Origin: Owenweeksia hongkongensis DSM 17368
Lineage (GTDB): Bacteria > Bacteroidota > Bacteroidia > Flavobacteriales > Schleiferiaceae
Reading direction: 5' to 3'
Length of the DNA stretch: 64,000 nucleotides
Assembly (NCBI RefSeq): GCF_000236705.1
Contig: NC_016599.1
Location: 496,001 to 560,000, forward strand
Positions within the stretch are counted from its first letter, which is position 1. Each line of letters starts with the position of its first letter. The notes under the pieces are model-generated. The model did no database searches. It saw nothing but the letters and a program-made list of their open reading frames with translations, and had not been told where the DNA came from. Below are positions 1,438-61,042 of this stretch, piece after piece. A program made the position numbers and the translations under genes.

Positions 1438-2145
1438 ATGAATATTCTTGAGTTTGAAAATACACAGGGCATTACTTTACGTTATAGTACGGCTTCAGTT
1501 TTTGATCGCAGTATTGCATATTTAATAGATCTGGCAATTGTTGGTTTTGTAGTAGGAGTTTTAGCTATTGCTTTAGGATCCAGTTCTTCGGCACTTTTAA
1601 TATTGGTTATCGCCATTCCAATCCTTTTTTATAGTCTGTTAATGGAAATTTTCAACGATGGAAAATCATTAGGTAAGATGGCTTTAGGCCTCAAGGTAGT
1701 TCGTGTAGATGGACAGTATCCTACGGGCTATGATTATTTCATGAGATGGATTTTTAGATGGGTAGATATTTACATGACTTCGGGTGCTCTTGCCGCTCTT
1801 GTGATTTCATCAAGTCCTCGCAACCAGAGGGTAGGAGACATGCTGGGAGACACCACCGTAATAAGAACTCGTAAATTGAGAGTTCCTTTACAGCGAATAC
1901 TTAATTTGAATAAGTTATCTAAGTATACCCCCCAGTATCCACAGGTAATTCAACTTAAAGAGTCACAGGTAGTGCTTATCAAAGAAAGTTTAGATCAGGC
2001 TGTAAAGTATACTAATGATAGCTATACCAAATTACTCGATGATTTAGCTATTCGTGTTGCTAAAAATCTAAATGTTGAAACCTCAGATACTTCAAGAGTT
2101 TTTCTTCAAACTATCATTAAAGATTACATTAGTCTTACCCGTTAA
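1438..2145 (+). CDS. RDD family membrane protein
   Basis: This 235-residue protein has an RDD domain in its N-terminal 150 residues. Helix 1 (about residues 26-45) carries the Arg-Asp pair in FDRSIAYLIDL, helix 2 is about 50-70, and the conserved GKSLGKMALGLKVVRVDG loop follows. A third segment with RWIFRWVDIY comes next, then SPRNQRVGDMLGDTTVIR. The C-terminal 80 residues are polar and probably cytoplasmic. The family is of unknown function; roles in ion or osmolyte handling have been proposed for some members. It is divergent from the SpoIIM-like gene, a usual Bacteroidota pairing. It converges on the next RDD gene with only 3 bases between stops and no terminator between them. Confidence 0.85.
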   Translation: MNILEFENTQGITLRYSTASVFDRSIAYLIDLAIVGFVVGVLAIALGSSSSALLILVIAIPILFYSLLMEIFNDGKSLGKMALGLKVVRVDGQYPTGYDYFMRWIFRWVDIYMTSGALAALVISSSPRNQRVGDMLGDTTVIRTRKLRVPLQRILNLNKLSKYTPQYPQVIQLKESQVVLIKESLDQAVKYTNDSYTKLLDDLAIRVAKNLNVETSDTSRVFLQTIIKDYISLTR

Positions 2146-2148
2146 AAA

Positions 2149-2592
2149 TCAAGCTTTTACTAAGTAGGTTTTAGAAAGGCTATCATGCCACATTTTACCG
2201 CTTGAGCTTAATACAGAAAAAGGTTCAAAAGGTATTATTCTACAAAGTGTTCTAATGATGATTTTTCCAATACTAGGTTTTTCACCTTCTTCATTTACCA
2301 CTCTTGTTCTAGTGACCATTTTTCCAATTGTCTTTCCGCCAATACCTTCAGCTATAACGTAGTATGTAAGGTGCGTAAGTAAAAACAAAACATTGTATAA
2401 AATACCTCCTTCACCAGGATCTCCCTGAGTGCTTATTAAAACAGCCGATATGCCGATTGCAATGATGTAAATAAAAATGAGGTCAATAACATAATTTGCT
2501 AATCGCTGTCCGGTACTAGCTAAGTTTGAGTTAGTTGGTTTTAAAGGACTTCCATCAAGACCTTCTTCTAATACGATGTTTTCAGTGTTCAT
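2149..2592 (-). CDS. RDD family membrane protein (short)
   Basis: The protein has 147 residues. After a polar N-terminus of about 25 residues comes an RDD domain: STGQRLANYVIDLIFIYII (helix 1 with the Arg and Asp), a second helix around residues 70-90, and the signature GIGGKTIGKMVTRTRVVNEEG. The end, IRTLCRIIPFEPFSVLSS, matches the third RDD segment. It is about 90 residues shorter than its neighbour because it lacks a cytoplasmic tail. Function is unknown. It is the last chromosomal gene before the island border. Confidence 0.85.
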   Translation of the reverse strand: MNTENIVLEEGLDGSPLKPTNSNLASTGQRLANYVIDLIFIYIIAIGISAVLISTQGDPGEGGILYNVLFLLTHLTYYVIAEGIGGKTIGKMVTRTRVVNEEGEKPSIGKIIIRTLCRIIPFEPFSVLSSSGKMWHDSLSKTYLVKA

Positions 2593-2666
2593 AAAGTTAA
2601 GTTTAATATTATGGCAATATATGTGAAGAAAAATAATGACGCAAGATTGCGGTTATTTTGAGGCAT

Positions 2667-2713
2667 AAAAAAACCGACCTATTTGCGATTGAATATGCAG
2701 AACTAGGTCGGTT
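2667..2713 (-). terminator. Rho-independent terminator, probably the displaced tRNA-Leu terminator
   Basis: A perfect 10-bp stem, AACCGACCTA (2672-2681) against TAGGTCGGTT (2704-2713), is followed on the minus strand by a T run (2667-2673). It lies directly outside the left att repeat and reads in the same direction as tRNA-Leu. The inference is that it terminated tRNA-Leu before the island inserted and was carried about 31 kb away from it. Confidence 0.8.
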
Positions 2714-2720
2714 AATAAAA

Positions 2721-2742
2721 TGTGCCCAGAACAGGACTTGAA
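2721..2742. repeat. attL: 22-bp direct repeat of the tRNA-Leu 3' end
   Basis: Twenty-two bases (starting TGTGCCCAGAACAGG) are identical to 33695-33716, which is the 3' end (acceptor and T-arm side) of tRNA-Leu(GAG). No tRNA body follows here, so this is a fragment. The arrangement of intact tRNA, then integrase, then cargo, then repeated tRNA 3' end is the classical signature of tyrosine-recombinase integration into a tRNA gene. Confidence 0.85.
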
Positions 2743-2814
2743 TCCTTACGTGTTTTTCCTATCATTGATAATCAATTGTTTATATAATAATATTTTCTTT
2801 TTTGAGAGAGTTTG

Positions 2815-2831
2815 TTCCCCACTTATTCCCC
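2815..2831. promoter_or_regulatory. Candidate integrase arm-type site, left end
   Basis: The sequence TTCCCCACTTATTCCCC is two TTCCCC hexamers 11 bases apart. It matches 16 of 17 bases of 33616-33632 near the other island end, in the same orientation. It lies 72 bases inside the attL core. Paired sites near both att cores are typical of arm-type binding sites of tyrosine integrases; the assignment is inferred. Confidence 0.45.
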
Positions 2832-2903
2832 GAATTGAGTGTGCTAAAATTATGAAAATAAGTGAATTAAGATGGGTTTGTTATTACTTTTTGACAAGGC
2901 GAC

Positions 2904-3161
2904 TTATTTTGAATCATCTTTTACCAAATCAAATTTACGTCTCACTGTTGAGTGCCCCAAAAATTCATCTACATAACCCTCGTGACCATTGGGGCAGCAT
3001 CTACCAGGAGCATAAGAAGGAGATACTCCATCTGGGGTACGAGAATGACACTTCACATAGAGTCTCCCGCAATAAGAGCAAAACCAAGGGAGTTTGCACA
3101 GGAGTCTTTTCACCAGAGAAAGTGGTGGTATCGGTTTTGGAGTAATTTGAGATGAGTCCAT
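2904..3161 (-). CDS. Small Cys-rich (zinc-ribbon-like) protein of unknown function
   Basis: The 85-residue product starts at ATG 3161 (MDSSQITPKPIPPLSLVK); longer in-frame starts reach back into the previous gene's end. The central part has CSYCGRLYVKC and then GRCCPNGHEGYVDEFLGHST, giving Cys-x2-Cys, Cys-x4-Cys and Cys-Cys-x3-His spacings suited to binding zinc. No named family is recognised. It is the first possible gene inside the left att site and follows the outer-membrane barrel gene by 11 bases in the same direction. Small size and location make it uncertain, but the Cys pattern argues against chance. Confidence 0.45.
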   Translation of the reverse strand: MDSSQITPKPIPPLSLVKRLLCKLPWFCSYCGRLYVKCHSRTPDGVSPSYAPGRCCPNGHEGYVDEFLGHSTVRRKFDLVKDDSK

Positions 3162-3172
3162 TGTAAGTGGTA

Positions 3173-5578
3173 TTAAAATTTGTAGCTGTAGCCAAAGCAA
3201 ATTACTTGTGTTTCGTAGTAATTGGCAGAGGTGTAGCTAAAGCCATCACTTTCTATAGTCTTATTGATTATCATAGTATTTAATAGATCAGTAGCGTTTA
3301 CGAAGATTTCTCCTCGACCATTTTGAATGGTTTTTTTAATTCCTAAATCCAATGAAAAGCGGCTATCAATTTTACCTTGAGGAATTATATCAGGTGCCAG
3401 ATAAGTGGCGGTAAGTTGAGCTTCAAAATTGCTTGGCAATCGAAAGAGACCATTAGCCTTGGCGGTACCAGAAATTATCTCCTGCTTACCTGCACTAAAA
3501 GTGTGTGGAGTTGGATAGAGGTTTTCTACGGTGTAAGCGTCAATCTGGTTGTGATAGGCGTTCAAGTTGATGTTGTACGAAAACCACCCATCTCCCTTTT
3601 CGGAATAAACTAATTCTACTCCTGAATTGTAGCTGCGGTTTACATTTTGAAAGATGGCATAAATCAAGGTACTGCCGGGGATGATTGTGGAAATACGCGT
3701 AATCGTACCATCTACAATACGGTGATAAGCTGCGGAATATAGAGAGCTGTTTTTCCAAGTGGTTTTATATCCAAGTTCAAATGAATTTGTAAACTGAGGT
3801 TTAAGGGCCGGATTTCCCACTTTTACAATTTCAGCATCATCATATTTTGGAAAGATGCGAATGTCTACTTCAGCAGGCCTGTCTACACGCCTGTTGTAAA
3901 AAAATGAAAGTTTATTATTGGTATTAAGCTTGTATGCTAAGCGTAGGTTGGGGAAGGGTTGAAAGTAATTATAACCATCCGTTTTGTAGGTATTATGTTG
4001 TGCATTTACTTGATAGTTCAAGTCAACATATTCTACACGCAAGCCAATTTCAGCTTCATACTTAGGGCTTTCAAAAACATAGTTACCATATAGTGCAGGG
4101 ATATTTTCTGAATAGGTGGCTTTGCCTCCTGCGTTGCTATCCAGAGGTGAATTTTGCCCGGGAAAGAATTGCATATTGGTGGGGATATCCCGTTTCCGAT
4201 ATTTAACTCCAGCTTCGACTCTACCATTTTTAATAGGCTTTATGTAGTTGATGTTTAGGTCAGCAACTTTTTCATCGCTCAGCAATTTGAAATGATCATT
4301 ACCAGTAAATGTGGGGTTGATATTTTCAAAAAAGTATTGCTCATCTTCTCTATGAAAAGTGTAGTTAAAATTTACATCCAGGGTATGTCCGGGTTCTGCA
4401 AATTTGTGACGGTACATAGCCGTAGCCATAGCTGTGGTTTTTAATTCATCCTCAAGAAATCGCCACAGTCTCAGCCTGTCAGAATAATCGGAATTAAAGA
4501 AAGGTTCATCCCCATTGTCAATAATCTTTTCCCGCCCATACATTCCTGAAATAGTAAAGGTGTTACTCTCATTAATATTCCAATCAAAGCCTCCGGTGGT
4601 AGTGAGGAAACCTGTGTTTCTGTTGCGCACGGTTTGTTGGTGTATGATTGTGCCATCATCATAGGTACGCGTTACAAATTCGTTTTTGTTTAAAGTTTCG
4701 GTGTATAAATAATCAGCTTGCAGAAAAGCATTGATTTTTCCTTTGCGGTAATTTAGGGATAGGGAAGGGTTAACCTTTGGAGTTTGCCCATACTGCGGCC
4801 TTATGGTTGGCAGATTTTCCTTTTTAACCCATAGAGCTCCCAGTCCTCCAGCTATTCCCACTTTACCGGTAAGGCCGTCTTTTTGCTCTTTTTTGTAAAT
4901 AATATTGATAATACCAGCGCTGCCGTTGGCATCAAATTTTGACGAAGGATTATTGATGATTTCGATACGCTCAATGGCCGATGCGGGAATATTATCTAAA
5001 CCCGATTGATTGCCAAACCCCGTCAGAGCTGTTTGTTTACCATCTATCAGCACTGTTATTTTATCGCTGCCGCGGAGTTCCAGTTTTCCTTCCTGTACAC
5101 TTACTCCTGGTAGATTTTGCATTGCTTGCAAAACGGAGCCGCCACTCTGACTTATGTTATCGGAAACTGCATAGGTTTTTTTATCCATCATTGAACTCAC
5201 CTCTGCTTGTGTTGCAGTGACTTGCACCTCACTCAATGTGGAAGTTTCCTCGGTTAGGAAAATGGTTTTTGCCTCCAAATACTTACTGAGGCTACCTACA
5301 AAAATCGCTGTCTTTTGATTTTTATATCCGATAAAGGAAGCTTCCAAATAGTAGTTTCCAGGAGGTACGTCCGAAATGGAATACCGACCGCTTTCCGTGC
5401 TTATCGTTCCTCCTACAAAGGAACTGTCATCGGTCTTTTTCAAAACTACATTCACAAAAGGAAGTGGTGTTTTGGAACTGGCATCTTCTATCATACCAGA
5501 CACGCTAGCTGTGAATTCTTGTGCACACACTATGGATGCCATTAATAAGGCAAACAGGCTTAAACTAAATTTCAACAT
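3173..5578 (-). CDS. Outer-membrane beta-barrel protein with carboxypeptidase-regulatory and TonB-plug domains
   Basis: The product is 801 residues from ATG 5578, chosen because the signal peptide MLKFSLSLFALLMASIVCAQ begins there; an upstream in-frame ATG adds a tail that does not look like a signal. A carboxypeptidase-regulatory-like domain spans about residues 22-95 (SGMIEDASSKTPLPFVNVVL). A TonB plug follows at about 145-230 (LQAMQNLPGVSVQEGKLELRG, IERIEIINNPSSKFDANGSAGIINI). The rest is aromatic-rich beta-barrel of the OMP_b-brl_3 type (LRLAYKLNTNNKLSFFYNRR, ELGYKTTWKNSSLY). Such proteins sit in the outer membrane and probably move a ligand; the substrate cannot be read from the sequence. 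It lies 94 bases after the PepSY-like gene and is probably cotranscribed with it. Confidence 0.85.
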   Translation of the reverse strand: MLKFSLSLFALLMASIVCAQEFTASVSGMIEDASSKTPLPFVNVVLKKTDDSSFVGGTISTESGRYSISDVPPGNYYLEASFIGYKNQKTAIFVGSLSKYLEAKTIFLTEETSTLSEVQVTATQAEVSSMMDKKTYAVSDNISQSGGSVLQAMQNLPGVSVQEGKLELRGSDKITVLIDGKQTALTGFGNQSGLDNIPASAIERIEIINNPSSKFDANGSAGIINIIYKKEQKDGLTGKVGIAGGLGALWVKKENLPTIRPQYGQTPKVNPSLSLNYRKGKINAFLQADYLYTETLNKNEFVTRTYDDGTIIHQQTVRNRNTGFLTTTGGFDWNINESNTFTISGMYGREKIIDNGDEPFFNSDYSDRLRLWRFLEDELKTTAMATAMYRHKFAEPGHTLDVNFNYTFHREDEQYFFENINPTFTGNDHFKLLSDEKVADLNINYIKPIKNGRVEAGVKYRKRDIPTNMQFFPGQNSPLDSNAGGKATYSENIPALYGNYVFESPKYEAEIGLRVEYVDLNYQVNAQHNTYKTDGYNYFQPFPNLRLAYKLNTNNKLSFFYNRRVDRPAEVDIRIFPKYDDAEIVKVGNPALKPQFTNSFELGYKTTWKNSSLYSAAYHRIVDGTITRISTIIPGSTLIYAIFQNVNRSYNSGVELVYSEKGDGWFSYNINLNAYHNQIDAYTVENLYPTPHTFSAGKQEIISGTAKANGLFRLPSNFEAQLTATYLAPDIIPQGKIDSRFSLDLGIKKTIQNGRGEIFVNATDLLNTMIINKTIESDGFSYTSANYYETQVICFGYSYKF

Positions 5579-5672
5579 GAATTTTTTTGTGGAATAATAA
5601 AATGGGGAAGGGGTAAAACAGCCCCACCCTTGAAACCAAGCGAGGCTGTCTTTCAATCTAAACTAACCTCAA

Positions 5673-6125
5673 TCAATCTTCATTATCATCTTGTAACTGT
5701 TTTTTACTTTTTAGGGAGCCGTCCGTTGCAAAAACTACTTCCCACTCTTCTTTTCCTTTTTCAAGTTCAACTTCATAAGCTACTTCACCATTGGCCATTT
5801 CCAGCATTTCGGGTTCCTCTACTTTATAGCCTGAAAATTGAGTTTTGATGGCATTGGTAATCGCATCAGGCAGTTCAGCTACTTTAATCTCGGTCTCGGT
5901 TTGTTGCCAATTTCCTTGTAGGTCAAAACCTGCCGATTTTTCTTTGCCATTCATTTTAAACTCAGCTTCCCATTCTGAGGCATTTTCCATTTCCCACTTT
6001 ACGGACTTGGCCTTGGGAAATTTTTCGTTGAATGATTTTTGAACTTCGGCAGGAACTTTTTGCTGGGCGCAAGCCACTGTAATTCCAAATAATGCGAGTA
6101 TGATACCTAGACTTAATTTCTTCAT
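5673..6125 (-). CDS. PepSY-like domain periplasmic protein
   Basis: The product has 150 residues with an N-terminal signal peptide (MKKLSLGIILALFGITVACAQ). Two beta-lactamase-inhibitor-like PepSY repeats follow: VQKSFNEKFPKAKSVKWEME ... WEAEFKMNGKEKSAGFDLQGNW, then AITNAIKTQFSGYKVEEPE ... YEVELEKGKEEWEVVFATDG. The tail is acidic. The family is secreted, acts in the periplasm or at the surface, and has no defined biochemical role. In Bacteroidota it often accompanies small two-component systems and TonB-type barrels, as here (barrel downstream, OmpR-type system at 7907-9831). Confidence 0.85.
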   Translation of the reverse strand: MKKLSLGIILALFGITVACAQQKVPAEVQKSFNEKFPKAKSVKWEMENASEWEAEFKMNGKEKSAGFDLQGNWQQTETEIKVAELPDAITNAIKTQFSGYKVEEPEMLEMANGEVAYEVELEKGKEEWEVVFATDGSLKSKKQLQDDNED

Positions 6126-9970: not shown

Positions 9971-10828
9971 TTAAATCTCAATGGCGTCAGTCAATACCTT
10001 GTTAGTATATTGAACCAGTTTTTTTTCTTCAATTAATTTATGTGGGGCATTAGTGTGTTGTAGAATGCTGGTAGCACTTTTATAAACACCGATTAAATCT
10101 CGATTAGAAGGTTTGCTGAGTAGTAGGTCAACACGTTGCTGATTATCTTGTAAGACAGAGCTTAGAACCTCAAGCTTTTTAGCCAATGCTAAAGCTTTGG
10201 TTTCAATCCCATCTTCTGATTGTAGATCAAAAGACACTGCTTTTACCAGGTTTTGGGTGCCGTTTTGCCAGTAGGAATCAGAGGTGAAGCTAATAAGCTC
10301 GTTTTTTACTTCTATCTTTTCTTCTTTCACAAAGGCGTTTAATTGACGGCCACCGCTATTGTCGGCTAAAAGTTGCTTGTACTTGTTCAGGATGTATGAC
10401 TCCGAATGAACCGTGACCTTGCTTTCCGTTAGGGATTTACCATATCCGGCAAGATATTTAGTGGTGAAGTAATTTATAGTTTCAGTCTCATTTTTCCAGA
10501 TAGGAGCCTGGCGAAAACCATCAAAATAAACAGAGGATCCATTGGGCGTTAGAAACCATTCAGAGATAAGACTATCATAATCATTCAGGTAACTAATAGC
10601 CTTCTCGCTAAGTTTTTGAGCCTGACTATTAAAAGATTTTAGCAACGCATTGACACTTTGAATTGGAGCATCTGGAAAAGCATGTGACAATCTTTTGATA
10701 TGTGGAGGCGCCACAAAGACAACTTTTGGTGAATCAGCAAAGAAAAAAAGCACACCAATATTCAGACTTTCCTCAACCACATGGTTGTGTCTGTATTTTA
10801 AAATGCTGTATGAAAATTGCTTATTCAT
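9971..10828 (-). CDS. DUF3037-family protein, partner of the HipA-like kinase
   Basis: The product has 285 residues, starting FSYSILKYRHNHVVEESLNIGVLFF, the typical opening of DUF3037 proteins. No signal peptide or membrane segment is seen. The family is unassigned biochemically but occurs next to small HipA-like kinases, as here: its ATG overlaps the kinase stop by 4 bases. It is the last gene of the four-gene operon headed by a type IIG RM enzyme. A role as antitoxin or substrate of the kinase is an inference from the pairing. Confidence 0.75.
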   Translation of the reverse strand: MNKQFSYSILKYRHNHVVEESLNIGVLFFFADSPKVVFVAPPHIKRLSHAFPDAPIQSVNALLKSFNSQAQKLSEKAISYLNDYDSLISEWFLTPNGSSVYFDGFRQAPIWKNETETINYFTTKYLAGYGKSLTESKVTVHSESYILNKYKQLLADNSGGRQLNAFVKEEKIEVKNELISFTSDSYWQNGTQNLVKAVSFDLQSEDGIETKALALAKKLEVLSSVLQDNQQRVDLLLSKPSNRDLIGVYKSATSILQHTNAPHKLIEEKKLVQYTNKVLTDAIEI

Positions 10829-11598
10829 TGTAAAAGCTCCTTGAGCAAATTTATAAACTTTGACGGCTCCTTACTCACTTTGGAAATATATTCCACCCAA
10901 TCCTGCTCTTTGACGCCCGAAAGACCTAAACTTTTTAGCTGACTTAAAGCGGCAGTTAGATTATTGAAACGAAGTCCTTCTAAATAAAATAGGAAGGAGT
11001 CGAAACAGTCATCATTTCTACGCAGTAAAGATTTGCTTTTGTTATATAGTAGATGGTTTTTAAGTATAAAGCTAATTTGGTTTCTATCTGGATGAGCATG
11101 AGCAAAAGCACCTTCATGATCAATAACATAAAACTTCTTTTCGCAAAATAACAAATTTGGTTTACGCTTAGTTCTGTCGATGTTATAAATCAACATATCA
11201 AACGCGAGGATGGTCGGAATATCATCTTTTGTAAGATAACGCAACTGTAGCGTTTGAGAGTATTCGGTAGCGAGGGTATATTTGGTGGCAAAAAACAATT
11301 TACCACTGCACTGCTGTAAATCTGGCAGTTGTTCAGTAGGGATAGTAGCTTTAAAGGACTCGGAGAGTTTAATTAAAGCGATATCTGGGGTGGGCAAGTC
11401 CATTTCTTTTGCCAAGATGGAACCCATTACCTCGTGCGCAATAAAATTTTGTTGCTGCAAAAATTTATCAGGGAAAAGCTTCATCACGTATAATTCAGGG
11501 TTTGCTTTACCAGTATCTACCTCAATGAGCCAAGGCCTTGTGGTGCCACCGCCTAAGGTGTTGATGAAACGGAAAGCTGTGTACGAGGGAATCTTCAT
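10825..11598 (-). CDS. HipA-like (HipA_2) protein kinase
   Basis: The 257-residue product is short compared with E. coli HipA (about 440). A Gly-rich loop appears at the start (FINTLGGGTTRPWLIEVDTG), then YVMKLFP with a probable ATP-anchoring Lys. Kinase-like catalytic features follow: FDMLIYNIDRTKRKPNLLF (DRT...N, catalytic Asp and Asn) and the metal-binding YVIDHEGAF. It lacks the N-terminal HipA subdomain and no HipB-like antitoxin precedes it. Canonical HipA phosphorylates a tRNA synthetase and causes dormancy; the target of this class is not established. Tight coupling to DUF3037 (4-base overlap) and to the RM-linked genes upstream suggests an abortive or dormancy arm of a defence locus. 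Confidence 0.78.
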   Translation of the reverse strand: MKIPSYTAFRFINTLGGGTTRPWLIEVDTGKANPELYVMKLFPDKFLQQQNFIAHEVMGSILAKEMDLPTPDIALIKLSESFKATIPTEQLPDLQQCSGKLFFATKYTLATEYSQTLQLRYLTKDDIPTILAFDMLIYNIDRTKRKPNLLFCEKKFYVIDHEGAFAHAHPDRNQISFILKNHLLYNKSKSLLRRNDDCFDSFLFYLEGLRFNNLTAALSQLKSLGLSGVKEQDWVEYISKVSKEPSKFINLLKELLQ

Positions 11599-11607
11599 TA
11601 GGCCAAT

Positions 11608-12249
11608 TTACTTTTTATCTACAAAATCTGTTGAAAACCATAATTGCTGGGTAGAACCCTTCTTTCTGAATATTCCAGTACCTAGCCCATCAGTTTCAAT
11701 AAGATAAAGCTCAGTTTCTTCTCTAATCAATACCAATTCACCTTGAATCATGAGTAAACTCAGTGCTTCATTGTCATTATCTAAGGCATATTGAAACATA
11801 TCATTATAGGCTGCTTTGCTAGTGGCAGCATACGTTGTTCTATTTGCATAGTATGTAACTCTGCTGCTTTCGGAGTCTGAAAAGAGGAATACAGCTAATA
11901 GGAATACGATAATGAGGCCTGAAAAAAAAGCACATCCAACAGGAAGCTTCTTTTGATTTGGATTTTCAATTTTGGTGTACTTAGTCTCAGCCTTTTTTTT
12001 CTCCGTTCTGCCTCTATGGGATAAGGGTATAAACCACTGCCTTGGTTTCTCGGTTGTTTGGTAGGCATGAGGTATTTCTCCATTTTCCAATAACCGCTTC
12101 AATTCACCGTTGCTTCTTTCAACTTTGGTCATCATAGAGTGACGGATTAGAAGAGTATTAGCCTGGGCGAGGCTTAAGCAATCCTTTTCAGATTGAATTA
12201 ATTCCGTGTCTATTGCCTTAATTATGTTTACTGCTGATTCCATTCTCAA
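11608..12249 (-). CDS. Unknown protein with HTH-like N-terminus and one transmembrane helix
   Basis: The product has 213 residues and its family is not recognised. Residues 25-78 look like an excisionase/HTH_17-type DNA-binding segment (SLAQANTLLIRHSMM ... LKRLLENGEIPHAYQTTEKP, then RQWFIPLS). A Lys/Glu-rich linker and one strong helix follow (about 103-124, VGCAFFSGLIIVFLLAVFLFS). The last 85 residues include a beta-rich tail (LVLIREETELYLIETDG). Its ATG overlaps the RM stop by 4 bases and the kinase starts 9 bases after its stop, so it is firmly inside the operon. A protein with a DNA-binding-like head and a membrane anchor would be unusual in a restriction locus. Confidence 0.65.
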   Translation of the reverse strand: MRMESAVNIIKAIDTELIQSEKDCLSLAQANTLLIRHSMMTKVERSNGELKRLLENGEIPHAYQTTEKPRQWFIPLSHRGRTEKKKAETKYTKIENPNQKKLPVGCAFFSGLIIVFLLAVFLFSDSESSRVTYYANRTTYAATSKAAYNDMFQYALDNDNEALSLLMIQGELVLIREETELYLIETDGLGTGIFRKKGSTQQLWFSTDFVDKK

Positions 12250-15200
12250 CTATTCTCCACAACTTCAATTTCCTCCTCAGTAAGGCCGTACAGCGCATAC
12301 ACCATTTGGTCTATTTCTTTATCCAGTGTATCAATTTGGGCTTGCAGAGCTTGCACCTGTTGTTTTTGCTGGTTGAAGTAAGGCATCCACTCGGCTTCTT
12401 CGGCCAGGCTTAGTTTTACCTTGGCTTTTTGTAGTTCTTTCAAAAAGCCCTTGAAATCTAATGAGGGCCAGTTTTGGAGCTTACCAGAAAGTTTTTCCAT
12501 TGGATAGCGATTAGTAAGCACTTGCAATAAACTCTGTTGCGTTTGCTGAATAGTTTCTGTGTTGACAATTATCTGATCGCAACGTTCCTCAAACTGAGCT
12601 TCATTAGCTAAAGGAGGGATTGGTATTTGCTCAAAGTATTGTGGCTTAACCTCTATGTAACCACCGCTTCTTACCACACAAATTGACTTGAGAAATTCCC
12701 AAATTAGTTTCGAGTTTATGATGCATAGAAGTGCTTTACTGTCAGAAGGCAGAATTACGGATGGAGCATTAATGTAGTATCCGCTTAAATCCAAAGAAAA
12801 TTTACTCCTGTTTTGAAGGTTTGGCCAAGTTATCTTCCCCGCTTCAAATTTTTTATAATAGTCAACAGAGTCTTGAATCTCAAACCATTTGTACGGGCCT
12901 GCTTTTCGTCCAACTTTTATTTCTGGACTATTCCGTGGAGTAAGTCTCTCTTTGAATTGTTCTAAGTATGTTTTTATAGCGGGAAAGTCCTCTATAATTG
13001 TGCCTCTTCTGGTGAAGATTAAGAACTTATCAATTTCAGCGGAGTGCCATTTCGTAAGATCTTTTCCTTCAAAAAATGGTTTAATCAATTCTGAAGAACT
13101 GGAATGCTCTTCTTCCAGTTTCTTCTTAGTTACAAGGTCAATAATAAAGGCTTCATTGAATCCAGTCTTTATTCCATAAAAACATTTACTAATGGTCGAG
13201 CGGATTGTAGAATGTAATTTTAATTTATCAATAATGGTAGCAAGAGCTACAGAATTAAAACTCCAACTATCTTCAGTTAGAGAAAATTGGTCAACTTCAA
13301 TAGCATGGTTACTAACAATTTCTGAAACCTGGGCTTTTTTGATTTTACGATAAGTAAAGACCTGTTTCTTGGGTGCAGAATTTTGGGCTATCAAAATTAT
13401 TGGGTAGGTCGTAGCTCCTTCAAAGATTTGCACCTCAGTAAAATCTATGTATGAATTAAAAGTAACCTGTGACTGCAAGTAACTTCTCAGTTTTACCGCA
13501 GCTTTAGTTTTATCAAATGTATTAGAGATAAAACCAAACTGACCACTTGGTTTTAAAATAGCAAAGCCCTTTTCATAGAAATAGGCAAAAAGATCGGATG
13601 TTCCTTCAAAGACCTTGTAAGTTTTCTCGAAGTACTCTTTGAAGTCACCCAACAACTCTTGTCTCACATAAGGCGGATTCCCGATCACCACATCAAAACC
13701 ACCTTTGGCAAATACCTGCGGAAATTCTTTTTCCCATTTAAAGGCTTTGTCGCCTGCTACCTTTACGGCATCTATCAGTGAGTTTCCACATTTTATATTA
13801 CTGCTCAGCGAAGTAAGTTTGCGGCCACGCTGTGCAGTGCGTAGCCATAGCGAGAGCTTGGCTATTTCTACACTTTCCTGGTTTAAATCTACTCCGTACA
13901 GGTTGTTTTCCAAAATGGAGTTTTCAATATCACTCAGTACCAAAGCATCCTTATTGTAGGTGGCGCTTAGTTCGTCAAGGTAGCGGTGCTCGGCTATCAA
14001 AAATTCCAATGCCTGGTTTAGGAAGGCCCCGGAGCCACAGGCGGGGTCGCAAATGGTGAGTTGCAGCAACCAATCACGGTACAGCTGCAAATTATTCAGG
14101 CGCTTTTTGCTACGCTGCTTGGCATTTTCATACACTTCAGCGGTTATTTCCAGTTCCTTTTTCTTTTCGTCACACAGCTTGCCCAGCGTATTATCTACAA
14201 TGTATTTGGTGATGTATTTTGGCGTGTAAAAAACACCGTCCTTTTTGCGTCTGGCTTTTTGCTTGTCAAAGTCCACACCCTCAATTTCGGCAGCTACGCT
14301 TTCAATTTCGTTGAGGCTGTTTTCAAAAATGTGCCCGAGGATGTTTACGTCTACTTCGCTTTCAAAATCATAAGCCGTAAGTGTAGTGGTATGCTTAAAG
14401 AGAAGGTCGTCATCTATCTCAATAGTGTCGAGTACGGGGTCGGGCAAAAACAAGCCACCGTTGTAGGCAAATATGTCGTGTTTAGGGTTTCCCTTGTCCA
14501 GGTTGGTAAAGTAAATCTTGTAGCGCTCATACAGCGATTGATCTACCTGCATATTCTGTAGCTGTTTCCATTCCTCGTTGATCTTTACCACCATGTTTCG
14601 CGGTATGAGGCCGCGGTCTTCGGCAAAAAAGATAAAGAGGAAACGGTCGAGCAGTTTTTGGGCTTTCTTGAAAAGGGTAAACTTTATTGACTTTTCTGAA
14701 AGTTCCTTGAGCTGTGGATTTCTGCGGTTGCGCTTCACCAGGTCGCGATATAGTTCCATCCTAAAGAGGGAGTAATCTTTATACAGCTGCTTGGTGATTT
14801 TTTCTTCCTGTACCAGTGAGTCGTCTTTCACCTTTTGAGGCACATCGTTCAGCAAATTGTTTTTGTGCAAACACAGGTAGAGCGTAGCAAAGTCTGCCGG
14901 GCTAAGATGAAATAGGTCAAACTCGAGCCACTCAACCGCATCATTGATGTAAAATCGCAACTTTTCAAAGTTGGAGGTGATAACATAGCGGCAATCGGTA
15001 TGGTTGGCTTTGTAGTCAAAGGCTTGTTTGCGTATGCTTTCAAGGTCTTTGGTTTTGGTAGACTTGAGTTCGATTACGGCTACCGCCTTTCCTCCTCCGC
15101 CTTTAGCTCCAGCCAAAATAGCACCATCAGCTTTTTGGGCACCGGTTTCATTTTTATGCTCGGTGGTGAGGTTATACTTAGGGTCAGGAAAAAGTGTGTA

Positions 15201-15389
15201 GCCCAAAGCATCTACAAACAGCTTCGACAAAAAGGTAGCTTGAAACTGTTCTTCTTTGCTCGACCTTATATTTCGTTGTACTTCAGAATTTTGAAAATAG
15301 GCAGTAAAGGTTCGGTAAGCTTTATCAATAGCTTTAGAATCCTGCTTGTCGAGATAATCTTTTAGAACCTTAGTTTGAAATAGAGCCAT
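12246..15389 (-). CDS. Type IIG restriction-modification enzyme (Eco57I/N6-adenine methylase fusion), island copy
   Basis: The product has 1047 residues. A PD-(D/E)xK nuclease forms the N-terminus: Asp88 in KADGAI and Glu107-x-Lys109 in VIELKST. The central N6-adenine methyltransferase has motif X-like GVFYTPKYIT (386-395), motif I DPACGSGAF (448-456) and motif IV NPPY (571-574). The target-recognition part (about 620-930) follows, with a coiled-coil end (LQAQIDTLDKEIDQMVYALYG). One polypeptide would methylate and cut the same asymmetric site. It is the first gene of a four-gene operon. It aligns over its N-terminal 580 and C-terminal 120 residues with the enzyme at 56019-59261, while the recognition parts differ, so the specificities should differ. 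Confidence 0.9.
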   Translation of the reverse strand: MALFQTKVLKDYLDKQDSKAIDKAYRTFTAYFQNSEVQRNIRSSKEEQFQATFLSKLFVDALGYTLFPDPKYNLTTEHKNETGAQKADGAILAGAKGGGGKAVAVIELKSTKTKDLESIRKQAFDYKANHTDCRYVITSNFEKLRFYINDAVEWLEFDLFHLSPADFATLYLCLHKNNLLNDVPQKVKDDSLVQEEKITKQLYKDYSLFRMELYRDLVKRNRRNPQLKELSEKSIKFTLFKKAQKLLDRFLFIFFAEDRGLIPRNMVVKINEEWKQLQNMQVDQSLYERYKIYFTNLDKGNPKHDIFAYNGGLFLPDPVLDTIEIDDDLLFKHTTTLTAYDFESEVDVNILGHIFENSLNEIESVAAEIEGVDFDKQKARRKKDGVFYTPKYITKYIVDNTLGKLCDEKKKELEITAEVYENAKQRSKKRLNNLQLYRDWLLQLTICDPACGSGAFLNQALEFLIAEHRYLDELSATYNKDALVLSDIENSILENNLYGVDLNQESVEIAKLSLWLRTAQRGRKLTSLSSNIKCGNSLIDAVKVAGDKAFKWEKEFPQVFAKGGFDVVIGNPPYVRQELLGDFKEYFEKTYKVFEGTSDLFAYFYEKGFAILKPSGQFGFISNTFDKTKAAVKLRSYLQSQVTFNSYIDFTEVQIFEGATTYPIILIAQNSAPKKQVFTYRKIKKAQVSEIVSNHAIEVDQFSLTEDSWSFNSVALATIIDKLKLHSTIRSTISKCFYGIKTGFNEAFIIDLVTKKKLEEEHSSSSELIKPFFEGKDLTKWHSAEIDKFLIFTRRGTIIEDFPAIKTYLEQFKERLTPRNSPEIKVGRKAGPYKWFEIQDSVDYYKKFEAGKITWPNLQNRSKFSLDLSGYYINAPSVILPSDSKALLCIINSKLIWEFLKSICVVRSGGYIEVKPQYFEQIPIPPLANEAQFEERCDQIIVNTETIQQTQQSLLQVLTNRYPMEKLSGKLQNWPSLDFKGFLKELQKAKVKLSLAEEAEWMPYFNQQKQQVQALQAQIDTLDKEIDQMVYALYGLTEEEIEVVENS

Positions 15390-56018: not shown

Positions 56019-59000
56019 ATGAGCCTTTTTCAAAACTCAGTACTCAAAAAATACCTCTCAGCGCAAGACAAAACCCACGTAAAGGAAGCTTACGCAAAAT
56101 TTACCACCTACTTTCATAATCCTGAAATACAGGAAAACATACGCAACTCCAAAGAGGAGCAGTTTCAGGAAGGATTTCTGCGAGAGCTTTTTGTAAATGT
56201 ACTTGGCTATACCATCAACCCCAATCCGGGGTATAACCTTACCACCGAACTCAAAAACATAAAAGACGCCAAGAAAACCGATGGCGCCATCCTGTCCCCC
56301 TCTGGGGGGGGTGCCACAGGCGGGGGAGGAAATTCGAACTCTTCTAAGGAAAGCGGACAAACTGCCCTAGCCGTAATAGAACTTAAAGGCACCGATACCA
56401 AAGACCTGGACAAGGTAAATGACCAGGCCTTTAATTATAAAAACAATCAGCCCGACTGCGTATATGTAATTACCAGCAACTTTGAAAAGTTGCGGTTTTA
56501 CATCCACAATGCAGTGGAGCATGAGGAGTTCAACTTGTTTGCGCTTAGCGCAGAAAGATTTTCTCTGCTTTGGCTTTTCCTGCAAAAAGACAACCTGCTT
56601 AGTGGGATTCCCGCCAAGGTGAAAGAGGAAAGCCTGCTGGCCGAAGAAAAAATTACGAAACAGCTTTATGCTGATTATTCCGCCTTTAAGCAAGAGCTGT
56701 GGCAGGATATGGTAAAGCAAAATCCACAACATGACGAGCTTTTGCTGTATAAGAAAAGCCAAAAGCTGTTGGACCGCTTTCTGTTTATATTTTTTGCTGA
56801 AGACAAGGGCCTACTGCCGCCAAACAGTATTAGCCAGATAATTGGCCAATGGGAAAAGCTCACCGAACTGGATGAATACCGCCCGCTGTATGACAGGCTA
56901 AAGAAGTATTTCGGCTACATGAACAGCGGCCACAAGGGCAAAGCTTTTGAAATACACGCTTACAATGGAGGTTTGTTTGCCGATGATGAATTGCTGGACG
57001 GCCTTATTATAAATGATGAACTGCTAAAAAAGCACTGCCGAAAGCTAACGGAGTACGACTTTGAAAGCGAGGTAGACACCAACATACTGGGGCACATATT
57101 TGAGCATAGCCTCAACGAGATTGAAAATGTACGCGCCCAGCTGGAAGGCACCGAAATAGATAAAAGCAAAAGCAAGCGCAAAAAGGACGGGGTATTTTAC
57201 ACCCCCAAGTACATTACCAAATACATAGTGGACAACACGGTAGGCAAGCTGTGCGAAGAAAAGAAACAGAGCATTGGTATTGATGATGAAGAGTTTGCCA
57301 AAGACCGTAAAGGCCGAAAAAAGACAACCCTTAAAAAACTGGATGCCCAGTTAAAGGAATACCGCGAATGGCTGCTGCAGCTTACCATTTGCGACCCCGC
57401 CTGTGGTAGTGGCGCTTTTTTAAACCAAGCCCTGGAGTTTTTGATGGCCGAACACCGCTATGTAGATGAACTGGAAGCACAGCTATTGGGCTATGCCTTT
57501 GAGTTTCCGGGAGTGGAAAACCACATACTGGAAAAGAACATATATGGTGTAGATATAAATGAGGAGAGTGTGGAGATAGCCCGCCTCTCGCTATGGCTGC
57601 GCACTGCCAAAAAAGGCCGAAAGCTCAATAACCTGAGCAGCAATATAAAAGTGGGCAACAGCCTGATAGATGACTCCGCTGTGGCGGGAGACCTGGCCTT
57701 TAACTGGCAAAACGAATTTCCACAGGTATTTGAAAGGGGAGGGTTTGATGTGGTGATTGGAAATCCGCCTTATTTAAGAGTACAGGGTTTGAGAACCAAT
57801 TTTGAAGTTGAGTCAGTTTTTTATGAAAAGAATTTTGATAGTGCCACAGGAAGATTTGACATTTATGTTCTCTTCATTGAAAAGGCTTATGGATTAATAA
57901 AGGATACAGGGAAGGTGAGCTTTATTCTCCCTCACAAATTTTTAGTTAGTGATTTTGGAGTTGGTATTCGTGGATTTCTTACCGTAAATAAAGCGGTTGA
58001 AAAAATTATTCATTTTGGCTCTGAAATGGTCTTTGCTGATGCTTCTACTTACACCTGCATTTTAAGTCTTTCTAATCAAAATGAAGTAGTTGAATTTAAA
58101 GAGATAGAGCCAATGCTGCTTTTCAATCCTTTTAGTTTTAATCAAATGCGAGTATCAGACCTATCCTCTGATAAATGGGATTTACAAGGGAAAGATATTT
58201 TCAATATTATTTTAAAATTGAAAAAACAGAAGCATACGGTGAAAGACCTATTTGACTGGATTAGTCAAGGTATTGTTTCTGTTGGTGATGATATCTTTCT
58301 GATGAGAGGAACCATTCAGGGAAATAGTTTTATTGGATATTCAGATAGGTTAGAAGCTAACATCGAATTAGAAGCAGGGGCGATGAAGCCCTTATTGAAA
58401 GGAGAGGATGTCAAAAAATATTCGGCATTATCCCCAAGCTACTATGTACTATACCCTCATTATGAAAAAGCAAATAAGACAGTGCCTTTGGAAGAGGAAG
58501 ATTTTCAACAAAAATATCCTTTGGCCTATAAATATATGCTTCCATTCAAAGAAGAATTGATTGAAAAGAAAGTAAGGTATAAAACCAATCCCAGATGCTG
58601 GTACAGCCTTCATAGGTCTAGAGATATTTCCCTTTTCCAAAAAACTAAAATAGTTACCCCTGAGACCTCCTTTGGAGGTAATATGACCATAGATGAAGAA
58701 GGCTTACTTCACAATACCCAGGTCTATTTATTAGTCGATAAGAACGAGTTAGAACAAGATAAAAAGTATTTGATGGCAATCTTAAATTCCTCCTTGCTTT
58801 GGTTTTATCTCCAAAATACAGGAGCCGTGCTCAGAGGGGGATACTTTAGATTTAAAACAAAATATTTGGAACCATTCCCCATGCCCTTGAGTAACCTTGA
58901 GGCTCAGCAGTCGTTTATATCGAAAGTAGATTTGATAATGGACAAAACCAGAGATTTGCAAACTATTCAGCATACTGTTCTTGGTTTTCTCCAATCTAAA

Positions 59001-59261
59001 TTCTCCATCGAAAAACCCTCCAAGAAACTCCAAAACTGGCCCTCCTTAGATTTTGAGGGATTTTTGACGGAGCTTAAAAAAGCCAAGGTAAAGCTAAGCC
59101 TGGCCGAGGAGGCCGAGTGGATGAGCTACTTTAATGCCCAAAAAGACAAAGCCAACACCCTGCAAGCCGAAATAAACCGCATTGACAAAGAGATAGACCA
59201 AATGGTGTATGAACTTTATGGGCTTACTGAGGAGGAGATAAAGATTGTGGAGAACTCGTAA
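56019..59261 (+). CDS. Type IIG restriction-modification enzyme (Eco57I-like), chromosomal copy
   Basis: The product has 1080 residues. The N-terminal nuclease has Asp88 (KTDGAI) and Glu121-x-Lys123 (VIELKGT). A Gly-rich insert between them is encoded by C5-TCT-G8 (56296-56311). The N6-adenine methylase follows with GVFYTPKYIT, DPACGSGAF and NPPY (GNPPYLRVQGL). The target-recognition half differs from the homologue at 12246, while the last 120 residues match again (LQNWPSLDFEGFLTELKKAK ... IDQMVYELYG). Bases in the conserved parts look GC-richer than in the recognition part. It should cut and methylate one asymmetric site. Three co-directional genes follow closely. Confidence 0.9.
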   Translation: MSLFQNSVLKKYLSAQDKTHVKEAYAKFTTYFHNPEIQENIRNSKEEQFQEGFLRELFVNVLGYTINPNPGYNLTTELKNIKDAKKTDGAILSPSGGGATGGGGNSNSSKESGQTALAVIELKGTDTKDLDKVNDQAFNYKNNQPDCVYVITSNFEKLRFYIHNAVEHEEFNLFALSAERFSLLWLFLQKDNLLSGIPAKVKEESLLAEEKITKQLYADYSAFKQELWQDMVKQNPQHDELLLYKKSQKLLDRFLFIFFAEDKGLLPPNSISQIIGQWEKLTELDEYRPLYDRLKKYFGYMNSGHKGKAFEIHAYNGGLFADDELLDGLIINDELLKKHCRKLTEYDFESEVDTNILGHIFEHSLNEIENVRAQLEGTEIDKSKSKRKKDGVFYTPKYITKYIVDNTVGKLCEEKKQSIGIDDEEFAKDRKGRKKTTLKKLDAQLKEYREWLLQLTICDPACGSGAFLNQALEFLMAEHRYVDELEAQLLGYAFEFPGVENHILEKNIYGVDINEESVEIARLSLWLRTAKKGRKLNNLSSNIKVGNSLIDDSAVAGDLAFNWQNEFPQVFERGGFDVVIGNPPYLRVQGLRTNFEVESVFYEKNFDSATGRFDIYVLFIEKAYGLIKDTGKVSFILPHKFLVSDFGVGIRGFLTVNKAVEKIIHFGSEMVFADASTYTCILSLSNQNEVVEFKEIEPMLLFNPFSFNQMRVSDLSSDKWDLQGKDIFNIILKLKKQKHTVKDLFDWISQGIVSVGDDIFLMRGTIQGNSFIGYSDRLEANIELEAGAMKPLLKGEDVKKYSALSPSYYVLYPHYEKANKTVPLEEEDFQQKYPLAYKYMLPFKEELIEKKVRYKTNPRCWYSLHRSRDISLFQKTKIVTPETSFGGNMTIDEEGLLHNTQVYLLVDKNELEQDKKYLMAILNSSLLWFYLQNTGAVLRGGYFRFKTKYLEPFPMPLSNLEAQQSFISKVDLIMDKTRDLQTIQHTVLGFLQSKFSIEKPSKKLQNWPSLDFEGFLTELKKAKVKLSLAEEAEWMSYFNAQKDKANTLQAEINRIDKEIDQMVYELYGLTEEEIKIVENS
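56296..56311. repeat. C5-TCT-G8 homopolymer tract in the RM gene
   Basis: CCCCC, TCT and eight G residues lie inside codons 93-98 of the second RM gene, between the two nuclease catalytic segments, with another G5 at 56322-56326. A change of one G would shift the frame and remove the methylase too. Confidence 0.7.
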
Positions 59262-59281
59262 TTAACCAAATCATAATAACC

Positions 59282-59914
59282 ATGTATCAAACTAAATCCA
59301 ATTTCACAGAGGAGACTTTAGAATGGCCTTCGTATATTCCAGATGGTGCGACAAAACTTATTATGGGCACTTTCCCTACTGAAGCAAGTAAAAGAAGCTA
59401 TCCCTTCTTTTACCCTAATACTGATAATTCCTTTTGGCGTGTCCTAGCAGCTATTGCTACTCATGAACTAAAATATTTTGAAGGAGATGAAGCTGTTCAT
59501 GAAAGGAAAAATATACTCGATAAGCTAAACATGGGAATCACAGATATTGGAAATAAAATTTTACGAAATGGTAATAGTTCATTGGATGCCGATATTTTCC
59601 CAATGGAGTTCACGGATGTTTTCAAAATTTTAGATGAAACCCCCACGATAAATAAACTCATTTTTACAAGCAGCACAAGTAAGAATAGTGTTTTGGGATG
59701 GTTTCAAGCATATTGTCAATTGAACAGCCCTTTGAGATTATCCGCACTTGATGGATCTAATAATCCAAAGCGATGTAATATTTTAAATTACTCAAGAAAA
59801 GTCTCTGTAACTATTGTGCATTCGACTTCTGGTGCTGCTAGACGTTCTTTTGAGGAATTATTAGAGATGTACAGGTTTGAAATAACCCCAATGGATAATC
59901 TGAAAAAAAAGTAG
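59282..59914 (+). CDS. UDG-superfamily DNA glycosylase-like protein (deoxyinosine/uracil glycosylase type)
   Basis: The product has 210 residues. Motif 1 is LIMGTFPTEASKRSYPFFYP (residues 26-45; GTFP replaces the usual GxxP/GTYP water-activating loop), then NTDNSFWRVL (substrate-pocket Asn/Phe-Trp). The C-terminal motif is VHSTSGAARRSF (about 179-190), in the place of the HPSPxS or PSTSPAN motif. This pattern is that of the deoxyinosine-DNA glycosylase branch. It starts 20 bases after the RM gene. In such a locus it may remove modified or deaminated bases from invading DNA or repair RM-linked damage; both are inferences. Confidence 0.75.
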   Translation: MYQTKSNFTEETLEWPSYIPDGATKLIMGTFPTEASKRSYPFFYPNTDNSFWRVLAAIATHELKYFEGDEAVHERKNILDKLNMGITDIGNKILRNGNSSLDADIFPMEFTDVFKILDETPTINKLIFTSSTSKNSVLGWFQAYCQLNSPLRLSALDGSNNPKRCNILNYSRKVSVTIVHSTSGAARRSFEELLEMYRFEITPMDNLKKK

Positions 59915-59916
59915 TC

Positions 59917-60471
59917 ATGACGAATCTAAAGATGATGGTGGATGAATACTTAAAGAGTAATCATATTAGCTGGCGTTTTAAAGTGATAGAATTTTACAAA
60001 GGTTTACCAACTGAGGAAATATTGAAGAAGGCTTGCTTAGCAAAAACTCACATTGGCAAGATGGATTCACATCAAAGAAGGGTTGGCAAAGAAAAATGTA
60101 AAGAGGGTTTAAGAATTATGATGACCAAGGAGAGTGAAGTTTGGAAAGCTAAAACCTTTGAGGGGTTGAAGCAAGTCACTGATTCTATCGCCTCCGTCAC
60201 TCATGGCCTTGGTCCATTGTGGTCTTATGATACAGCGCTTCGTATTGGGTTTAAAATGAATGTTTTTCCAGATAGGGTGTACGTGCAGAGTGGAGTTAGC
60301 GATGGAATTAAGAATCTGTTAGGGAAAGATTTCTATAAGAATCTACCAAGAAATAGGGGTCACAAATATTGCTTGCGGGAAAACCTGCCGAAGGAGTTGC
60401 ATGGGATGGAACCAGCTCTAATTGAGAACTTTTTATGTATATATAAAACACAGTTGATTATGTATGATTAA
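59917..60471 (+). CDS. Unknown conserved-looking protein in RM operon
   Basis: The product has 184 residues and no recognised family. There is no signal or membrane helix. An N-terminal helical part is rich in Lys (EILKKACLAKTHIGKMDSHQ). A central segment reads IASVTHGLGPLWSYDTALRI and then GFKMNVFPDRVYVQSGVSDG, followed by IKNLLGKDFY, resembling a helix-hairpin-helix-like DNA-binding element. It starts 2 bases after the glycosylase-like stop and overlaps the next gene by 8 bases. Basic charge and position suggest a DNA-associated role. Confidence 0.6.
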   Translation: MTNLKMMVDEYLKSNHISWRFKVIEFYKGLPTEEILKKACLAKTHIGKMDSHQRRVGKEKCKEGLRIMMTKESEVWKAKTFEGLKQVTDSIASVTHGLGPLWSYDTALRIGFKMNVFPDRVYVQSGVSDGIKNLLGKDFYKNLPRNRGHKYCLRENLPKELHGMEPALIENFLCIYKTQLIMYD

Positions 60472-60973
60472 TAAAATCATAAAATCTCTAGAGGGCATAA
60501 ACGAAAGAGCTGCCGCTATCGAATTTAGAGGAGACGCTAATTATACCAAGGCTTGTATGGAAACCCTAACAAGCTTGGCTTATGGCAACAACTATCATGT
60601 TTATGGCCATGCCAATATTATAGAGCCTACCATGAATGAATGGCTTTATGATATGGTTTGGTGCACTCCAGAACCCCAGAGCATTTTCCATATTCAAAAA
60701 ATTCACCTTGTGGTAGAAAGTGAGTGGAAGACTGGGAAGGATGAACAAGAATATGATTTCTACAAGCTGGTACAAGCACGAGCAGAGCTAAGGCTTTTTA
60801 TTTTTCAGGCTAAAAGTGTAGAGGATAGAATGAACTACTTTAAAGATATAGTAGAACGTTCATCGATAGCACAGGAAGGTGACAACTATTTACTCGCTTG
60901 CTGGAATGATGACGGTGGCTTCACCTTTGGTTCTTTTAGCAAAGGAGGAGGGTGGGATTATTTATCCAATTGA
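60464..60973 (+). CDS. Unknown protein, possibly PD-(D/E)xK nuclease-like, in RM operon
   Basis: The product has 169 residues and no recognised family. The order EWLYDMVWC (Asp), HLVVESEWKTG (Glu-x-Glu-x-Lys) and YDFYKLVQARAELRLFIFQA recalls the core of restriction-endonuclease-like folds, where an Asp, then Glu-x-Glu/Lys, then a long helix occur. Catalytic competence is uncertain. It overlaps the preceding gene by 8 bases and ends the operon before a hairpin terminator at 61000-61042. Confidence 0.55.
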   Translation: MINKIIKSLEGINERAAAIEFRGDANYTKACMETLTSLAYGNNYHVYGHANIIEPTMNEWLYDMVWCTPEPQSIFHIQKIHLVVESEWKTGKDEQEYDFYKLVQARAELRLFIFQAKSVEDRMNYFKDIVERSSIAQEGDNYLLACWNDDGGFTFGSFSKGGGWDYLSN

Positions 60974-60999: not shown

Positions 61000-61042
61000 C
61001 TGACAGGTTTCTCTGCATCGCGTTGATAAACCAACCTGTCAG
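61000..61042. terminator. Hairpin terminator after the second RM operon
   Basis: CTGACAGGTT (61000-61009) and AACCTGTCAG (61033-61042) form a perfect 10-bp stem with a 23-base loop that itself holds GGTTTCTC / GATAAACC. It is similar in sequence to the hairpin at 51780-51824 (both GACAGGTTT-cored). The weak T run leaves its strength uncertain. Confidence 0.55.

Follow-up and report, generated by a model that had tools for sequence, protein, structure and literature searches.

We analysed four consecutive genes, numbered 1 to 4 in the direction of reading (Table 1), that begin with a restriction-modification (RM) gene and lie in a 64,000-nucleotide stretch of the Owenweeksia hongkongensis DSM 17368 genome (bases 496001-560000 of one 4.0-Mb contig, NC_016599.1; hereafter the window). 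The reading that we prefer, to which we give a probability of roughly 0.38, is that the three genes behind a type IIG RM gene form an accessory cassette of defence type that was assembled locally, an arrangement that would cover both plain and base-modified DNA. Such a cassette behind the IIG gene is favoured because of the order, the spacing and the content of the genes, which all lie on the same strand at intergenic distances of 20, 2 and -8 bases, and in this respect the original prediction, which had been made from the DNA letters alone, was exact. There is good support for an RM gene that carries a variable accessory cassette, and the gene set is probably local and recent and does not represent a conserved system, whereas the idea that all four proteins act jointly as a single machine against modified phage DNA is plausible, though unproven. 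The new element of the locus is the family of gene 3, which is unnamed and widespread.

Mechanistically, the IIG enzyme would methylate its own site and cut unmethylated plain DNA. The UDG (uracil-DNA glycosylase)-like protein encoded by gene 2 may flip out and remove a non-canonical base, either deaminated or phage-modified, which would leave an abasic site. The HhH-GPD/ADDT-like product of gene 3 may bind or alter a flipped base without excising it, as the usual catalytic lysine is absent, and the nuclease-like protein encoded by gene 4 would break the DNA. With all four proteins, incoming DNA of both kinds could be dealt with.

Table 1. Features of the four-gene locus, in window coordinates.
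Feature	Position	Strand	Basis
Gene 1, type IIG restriction-modification enzyme (predicted), 1080 aa	56019-59261	+	ATG start, open reading frame
Swapped specificity segment in gene 1, about codons 581-1000	57759-59018	+	low GC, low identity to second copy
Gene 2, UDG-superfamily-like protein, 210 aa	59282-59914	+	ATG start, open reading frame
Gene 3, unnamed family, 184 aa, predicted all-helical HhH-GPD-like fold	59917-60471	+	ATG start, open reading frame
Gene 4, probable restriction-endonuclease-fold nuclease, 169 aa	60464-60973	+	ATG start, open reading frame

By its predicted activity, gene 1 belongs to the RM enzymes of type IIG, which agrees with its original assignment to RM systems. The PADLOC model PDLC03609 (REase_MTase_IIG) matches the protein at full length (residues 1-1079) with 1057 bits, which is far above chance, and in Pfam it is matched by Eco57I (160.6 bits), TaqI_C (62.1) and MmeI_Mtase (56.1). 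The sequence features of a type IIG enzyme are present in one chain, i.e. a nuclease-type motif (IELKG at residue 120, assigned by eye), the N6-methylase motifs I and IV (DPACGSG at 459, NPPY at 582) and a C-terminal specificity domain for target recognition. The gene had been described as the second RM gene of the window, and there is indeed another type IIG gene at 12246-15389 on the minus strand that is 52% identical to it. When both proteins were compared in blocks of 60 residues, identity was 0.12-0.32 over residues 601-960 and 0.48-0.77 in both arms, and the GC content of the corresponding segment of gene 1 is 0.352 versus 0.454 and 0.450 in the flanking parts. As reduced GC content and reduced identity to the other copy go together in this region, the specificity segment of gene 1 has been swapped. 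In the minus-strand region 9971-15389, closely packed genes of 213, 257 and 285 residues stand on the same strand behind the second IIG gene; the last two presumably resemble a HipA-like kinase and a DUF3037 protein.

What stands behind type IIG genes was counted for 20 such genes with a length of 950 residues or more, the two copies of the window among them; short type IIG fragments in loci L090 (two) and L097 (one) were left out. A same-strand gene within 50 bases downstream was present in 12 of the 20 cases, as compared with 30/87 for other genes of the same loci under the same rule (Fisher p 0.04). The excess is modest and the content of the slot varies: apart from one pair (L081 and L083, BLASTP E 1e-5), the 12 close downstream genes are mutually unrelated. 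At 1637-6122 of locus L080, three genes of 293, 326 and 835 residues stand on the same strand behind a type IIG relative, and we take the last two of them to resemble SIR2-like and DUF262-like proteins, respectively.

Gene 2 resembles the UDG superfamily, namely its family-6-like branch of hypoxanthine-DNA glycosylases (HDG), and is a predicted glycosylase; the original assignment thus stands with respect to the superfamily likeness, although no curated threshold is reached. Both motifs that had been pointed out are present in the 210-residue protein, GTFP (GTFPT) at position 29 and HSTSG at position 180. The NCBIfam model for hypoxanthine-DNA glycosylases, TIGR04274, matches with 45.7 bits (E 7e-12), which is under the curated cut-off of 80 bits for family 6. 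Single-sequence searches of the PDB gave weak matches to 2l3f (E 0.0036) and to the G/U mismatch glycosylase 2c2p (E 0.0049), and a three-row profile of gene 2 again found 2l3f, now with E 2.9e-5, the next match being an unrelated ATP synthase subunit (0.013). When gene 2 was aligned with 46 relatives, the resulting 47 proteins fell into several branches, and gene 2 looks alike with its two nearest relatives, G192 (41% identity) and G057 (37%). A single-sequence scan of viral contigs revealed no relatives of gene 2, and comparison with phage records gave seven weak matches.

The protein encoded by gene 3 is basic, as had been noted (isoelectric point 9.4; 31 K+R vs 21 D+E). At E <= 1, neither gene 3 nor gene 4 matches any family in Pfam, NCBIfam, PADLOC or PHROGs; the earlier statement that both lack a nameable family therefore holds for the libraries, but the fold of gene 3 is recognizable. 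Among 36 relatives of gene 3, no named family recurs except the ADDT family PF18724, and one unrelated Pfam model occurs in two members; NCBIfam gave no match to the family, and PHROGs and PADLOC gave weak single-member matches only. Relatives were found in 3 of 395 genomes of the phylum (own genome included), in three plasmids, in one viral contig and in 53 genome contigs, 19 of which carry cyanobacterial titles, and the family spans several phyla (more than 50 loci fetched); some contigs and loci represent the same locus fetched twice. A scan of viral contigs with the gene-3 alignment gave one prophage-like contig, while single-sequence scans of viral contigs and of phage records gave none. 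The cyanobacterial branch (L101-L110, L112-L119 and L150) consists of proteins of about 200 residues that mostly carry a WWGDxxLxW motif and have mixed neighbours.

Alignment A6 of the gene-3 family has 36 rows, and seven positions do not vary in it (H52, Y104, D105, G126, E170, L173 and C174); one row (L149) is a short reading frame with an uncertain start. Structure prediction, which had been suggested as a check, gave a confident, HhH-GPD/PUGT-like model for gene 3, with a mean pLDDT (predicted local distance difference test) of 94.3, and a mediocre one for gene 4. In VIA-align, the gene-3 model matched MjOgg (3knt, Z 8.1, root-mean-square deviation (rmsd) 4.1, 159 aligned), PUGT (8z2n, Z 7.4, rmsd 3.9, 166 aligned) and AGOG (1xqo, Z 7.0, rmsd 5.8, 167 aligned), and 42 of 50 rows were DNA glycosylases or endonuclease III (titles read by eye), with the reservation, given as a warning by the tool itself, that Z values of this size can come from a shared helical arrangement. 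The GxG of the hairpin is largely retained (G97 in 30/36 rows, G99 in 34/36). Position 101, which by the motifs of endonuclease III (EndoIII) and Ogg we take to be the slot of the lysine in bifunctional HhH-GPD enzymes, is occupied by L (26), V (4), T (4) or M (2) in the 36 rows and never by K. In Foldseek against the PDB, 8z2n ranked first with an E of only 0.22, and among viral rows the top named protein was the helical domain of a 5-hydroxymethyldeoxyuridine (5-hmdU) kinase, an ADDT protein being seventh and none reaching E <= 0.001. A profile search of the PDB with gene 3 gave an unrelated protein as best match (E 0.081).

The gene-3 family is likely to be remotely related to phage ADDTs, as judged from profile comparisons, whereas membership in ADDT is not shown. 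PF18724 is weakly matched by 5 of the 36 members of alignment A5 (best E 0.0012), and of ten relatives scanned singly, three match at about profile positions 124-227 (best 19.0 bits). No gene-3 member that was scanned reaches the gathering cut-off of 26.2 bits, and gene 3 itself has no match to PF18724 at E <= 1, which both speaks against membership. Alignment of the family with eight phage ADDTs in hhalign gave a score of 25.7 with a stated probability of 6.7% and a P of 0.0054. None of 300 column shuffles reached this score (best 22.8), which is a lenient control because shuffling breaks up local order; further controls against the phage ADDTs gave 11.9 (A1), 14.9 (A2) and 12.5 (reversed alignment). 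One could go further and propose that bacteria recruited a cellular branch of the phage hypermodification transferase superfamily, with gene 3 as a member, to RM and other defence operons, where it would act on modified bases or read them. Together with the glycosylase and the nuclease, the operon would then have two layers, restricting plain DNA by cutting and modified DNA by base handling, but we consider this extended proposal doubtful.

Elsewhere, 3 of 53 loci have a DNA methyltransferase no more than three genes away from the gene-3 relative, namely in a Chlorobiota locus (L121) from the same GTDB phylum as the window, which was fetched also as L044 from G268, in Nitrospira (L138), and on a plasmid of the cyanobacterium Geminocystis (L005), where an NgoBV-family endonuclease is also near. 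Methyltransferase matches thus occur in 3 of 227 near genes vs 0 of 358 farther genes of these 53 loci (L139, L145 and L153 were left out, as they contain no usable gene-3 reading frame), and this count is biased and only suggestive, because three of the four queries came from those very neighbours. A Pfam scan of ten chosen neighbours revealed AAA, KAP or STAND-type ATPases beside the relatives in L123, L128, L134, L137 and L143. In PADLOC, PtuA, AriA and AbiLi were the commonest families among the matches listed, each with 3/62; the scan covered 62 of 87 near genes, 25 short or doubtful ones being excluded by eye, and 25 of 191 families were listed. In prophage-like regions of Bacteroides, a phage amidase gene precedes, by a few genes, the gene-3 relative (L100 5791-6420, L147 7791-8420, L007 5893-6501); L100 and L147 share reading frames and have an AAA ATPase close by, and a long protein near the relative in L100 presumably resembles a subtilase. 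In L141 (1531-2884) and L142 (3762-5090), a regulator gene, which we assume to be XRE-like, is followed after 28 and 18 bases, respectively, by the gene-3 relative.

Gene 4 encodes an acidic protein (isoelectric point 4.9) of 169 residues with relatives in 3 of the 395 phylum genomes, own genome included, and is likely, though not certainly, a nuclease with a restriction-endonuclease (PD-(D/E)xK-like) fold, as far as the structural models indicate. The residues D63, E85 and E87 (E85-x-E87) are invariant in the three-row alignment A1. The best of five models has a pLDDT of 71.9, and the remaining ones are at 41-52. In VIA-align, the best model has restriction-fold neighbours at Z 4.5-7.5 (BglII 7.5, OkrAI 7.0, BamHI 6.7, EcoRV, PspGI and others), which agrees with the fold that had been suspected for this gene, but acetyl-CoA carboxylase, an unrelated fold, scores above them at 7.8 and also comes first in Foldseek (E 2.1e-4). 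The best match in a profile search of the PDB was an unrelated protein (E 0.089), Pfam gave one weak match for the relatives (E 0.11), and no relatives of gene 4 were found in viral contigs or plasmids.

How do these observations bear on the reading of a defence-type cassette behind the IIG gene? Several of them weigh against it. In the 395 phylum genomes and in 81 loci, there is no second copy of the quartet and no other place where two of genes 2-4 are co-located; the neighbourhood search that had been suggested for the 184- and 169-residue proteins thus brought up the methyltransferases near gene 3 but no second quartet. The excess of genes behind IIG enzymes is small. Pfam UDG (PF03167) does not match gene 2 at E <= 1, and in the surroundings of the relatives G192 and G057 (7.7 and 19.5 kb) no relative of gene 1, 3 or 4 is found. 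With gene 1 as the only query, the methyltransferase neighbour of gene 3 appears at the Chlorobiota locus alone, and many gene-3 relatives, among the loci listed, adjoin genes that look ordinary by eye. No restriction enzyme is found among the 50 Foldseek rows listed for gene 4. A conserved quartet was considered and rejected, and a conserved machine is disfavoured because there is no second example of the gene set. In five genomes (G076, G099, G154, G033 and G277), relatives of two of the genes lie far apart or on separate contigs. Among the 81 loci, apart from the window, a relative of gene 2, 3 or 4 stands with an IIG-like gene only at L121/L044, where a gene-3 relative is accompanied by an Eco57I-like methylase. 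In L150, a reading frame of 708 residues with a weak glycosylase-like match lies about 6 kb away from a 73-residue gene-3 fragment.

The rival that survives best is chance accretion, in which the slot behind IIG genes gathers genes of unrelated kinds, and a repair glycosylase, an HhH protein and a nuclease (genes 2-4) would have landed there independently, without joint function. We regard this as nearly as probable as the preferred reading, as genes 2-4 do not co-occur elsewhere in the genomes and loci searched, as the close downstream neighbours of IIG genes share so little with each other, and as the relatives of gene 2 are without an RM partner in the flanks examined. Matches to gene 2 at E <= 1e-3 occur in 34 of the 395 phylum genomes, own genome included, and only in the window's own genome does gene 2 adjoin a gene-1 relative (at E <= 1e-60, with the top two candidates of each genome scored). 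However, three consecutive base- or DNA-handling proteins at -8 to 20 bases behind an RM gene are more coherent than a random collection, and the gene-3 relatives near methyltransferases in other loci also argue for more than passengers.

Alternatively, genes 2 and 3 could carry out base-excision repair for the host chromosome and be driven only incidentally by the RM promoter. This would agree with the resemblance of gene 2 to hypoxanthine-DNA glycosylases and with the gene-2 relative in L040, which lies one gene from an apparent DNA-alkylation-repair gene, but such damage control is unlikely, since the host already owns two other genes above the Pfam UDG cut-off, and since the gene-2 profile at E <= 1e-15 matched no other genome of the same family (27 of 376 genomes in the order sample were matched, and only the own genome among these 27 is of its family). 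Gene 2 as a housekeeping repair gene that mostly occurs away from RM genes, the outcome that the original prediction had named as its refutation, is in line with the nearest relatives, which lack RM partners and whose neighbours look ordinary by eye, but the gene is not conserved in its own lineage; because only its own genome of the family was matched at 1e-15 in the order sample, housekeeping was rejected as the whole story. Against this rejection, 2 of 8 relatives searched hold TIGR04274 matches under the cut-off, and one of the two, in G411, scores like gene 2 (45.8 vs 40.9 bits in the same search). A self-marking system, in which the ADDT-like protein would modify host bases, the glycosylase would edit or remove misplaced marks, and the nuclease would attack DNA lacking or bearing it, is improbable even though the base transferase PUGT is among the nearest solved structures of gene 3 and a profile link to phage ADDT exists, as none of the four genes, to which this search was confined, matches a 5-hmdU kinase or other supplier of the ADDT substrate, and all scanned gene-3 members stay under the PF18724 cut-off.

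Directly 3' of gene 4, a palindrome, CTGACAGGTTT...AACCTGTCAG, lies at 61000-61042 (fold z -2.81), and this pattern is present at three genomic places; it is a possible end-of-transcript hairpin. A scan for promoters and terminators gave nothing above shuffled sequences. The right-hand flanking gene, which was the sole flank searched for an empty site, has a best same-genus match of 30% identity.

In comparison with known systems, gene 1 is a full-length match to type IIG enzymes, with a nuclease motif, an N6-methylase and a specificity domain in a single chain, and differs from the other IIG genes examined by the three accessory genes behind it, which were not seen there. Gene 4 resembles endonucleases of the BglII/BamHI type in the predicted core fold and in a D...ExE pattern, which we equate with that of BamHI, but identity is below 20%, the confidence of the model is limited, and an unrelated fold scores equally high. 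PabI has its own fold, and no PabI name came up for genes 1-4 in the family scans. PabI enzymes are a precedent for restriction by base excision (PMC10273834, PMC12366791).

Anti-phage glycosylases that attack modified phage DNA are a young field. Brig1 was published in 2024 (PMC11078745), and a 2026 preprint reports Brig3 as a homologue of Brig1 and as a UDG-superfamily anti-phage glycosylase with the operon partner BapA (PMC13160076). Modified thymine and guanine are named as the bases on which Brig2 and Dag1/Dag2 act (PMC13216743). Like Brig1 and Brig3, the glycosylase-like gene 2 adjoins a defence gene, a likeness by description and not by sequence, and unlike them it has its best family match in HDG. 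It shares the GTFP-type motif 1 with family 6, from which it differs by its sub-threshold score and by its position on a separate branch with two close relatives found.

The chief interest of the locus lies in gene 3, as this may be a cellular ADDT-like family that is found near a DNA methyltransferase in three other loci. HhH-GPD glycosylases such as MjOgg, AGOG and EndoIII are the best VIA-align matches of the gene-3 model, but the lysine slot of the family is not K in 36/36 rows, and Pfam HhH-GPD does not match. With phage ADDT/PUGT (PF18724; PaMx11 gp46, PDB 8z2n, the reaction of PUGT being taken from the PDB title), gene 3 has a similar predicted all-helical arrangement in common, and the GxG and ExxxLC regions align; unlike these proteins, it has only 184 residues vs about 290, stays below the family cut-off and is not accompanied by a hypermodification gene in its operon (genes 1-4 match no 5-hmdU kinase or hypermodification family in Pfam, NCBIfam, PADLOC or PHROGs, the scan being confined to these four). 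If the kinship holds, the family would suggest that bacteria took up the phages' own base chemistry. In any case, it provides a testable protein with seven invariant positions and a predicted fold that resembles base-excision enzymes as well as a phage transferase.

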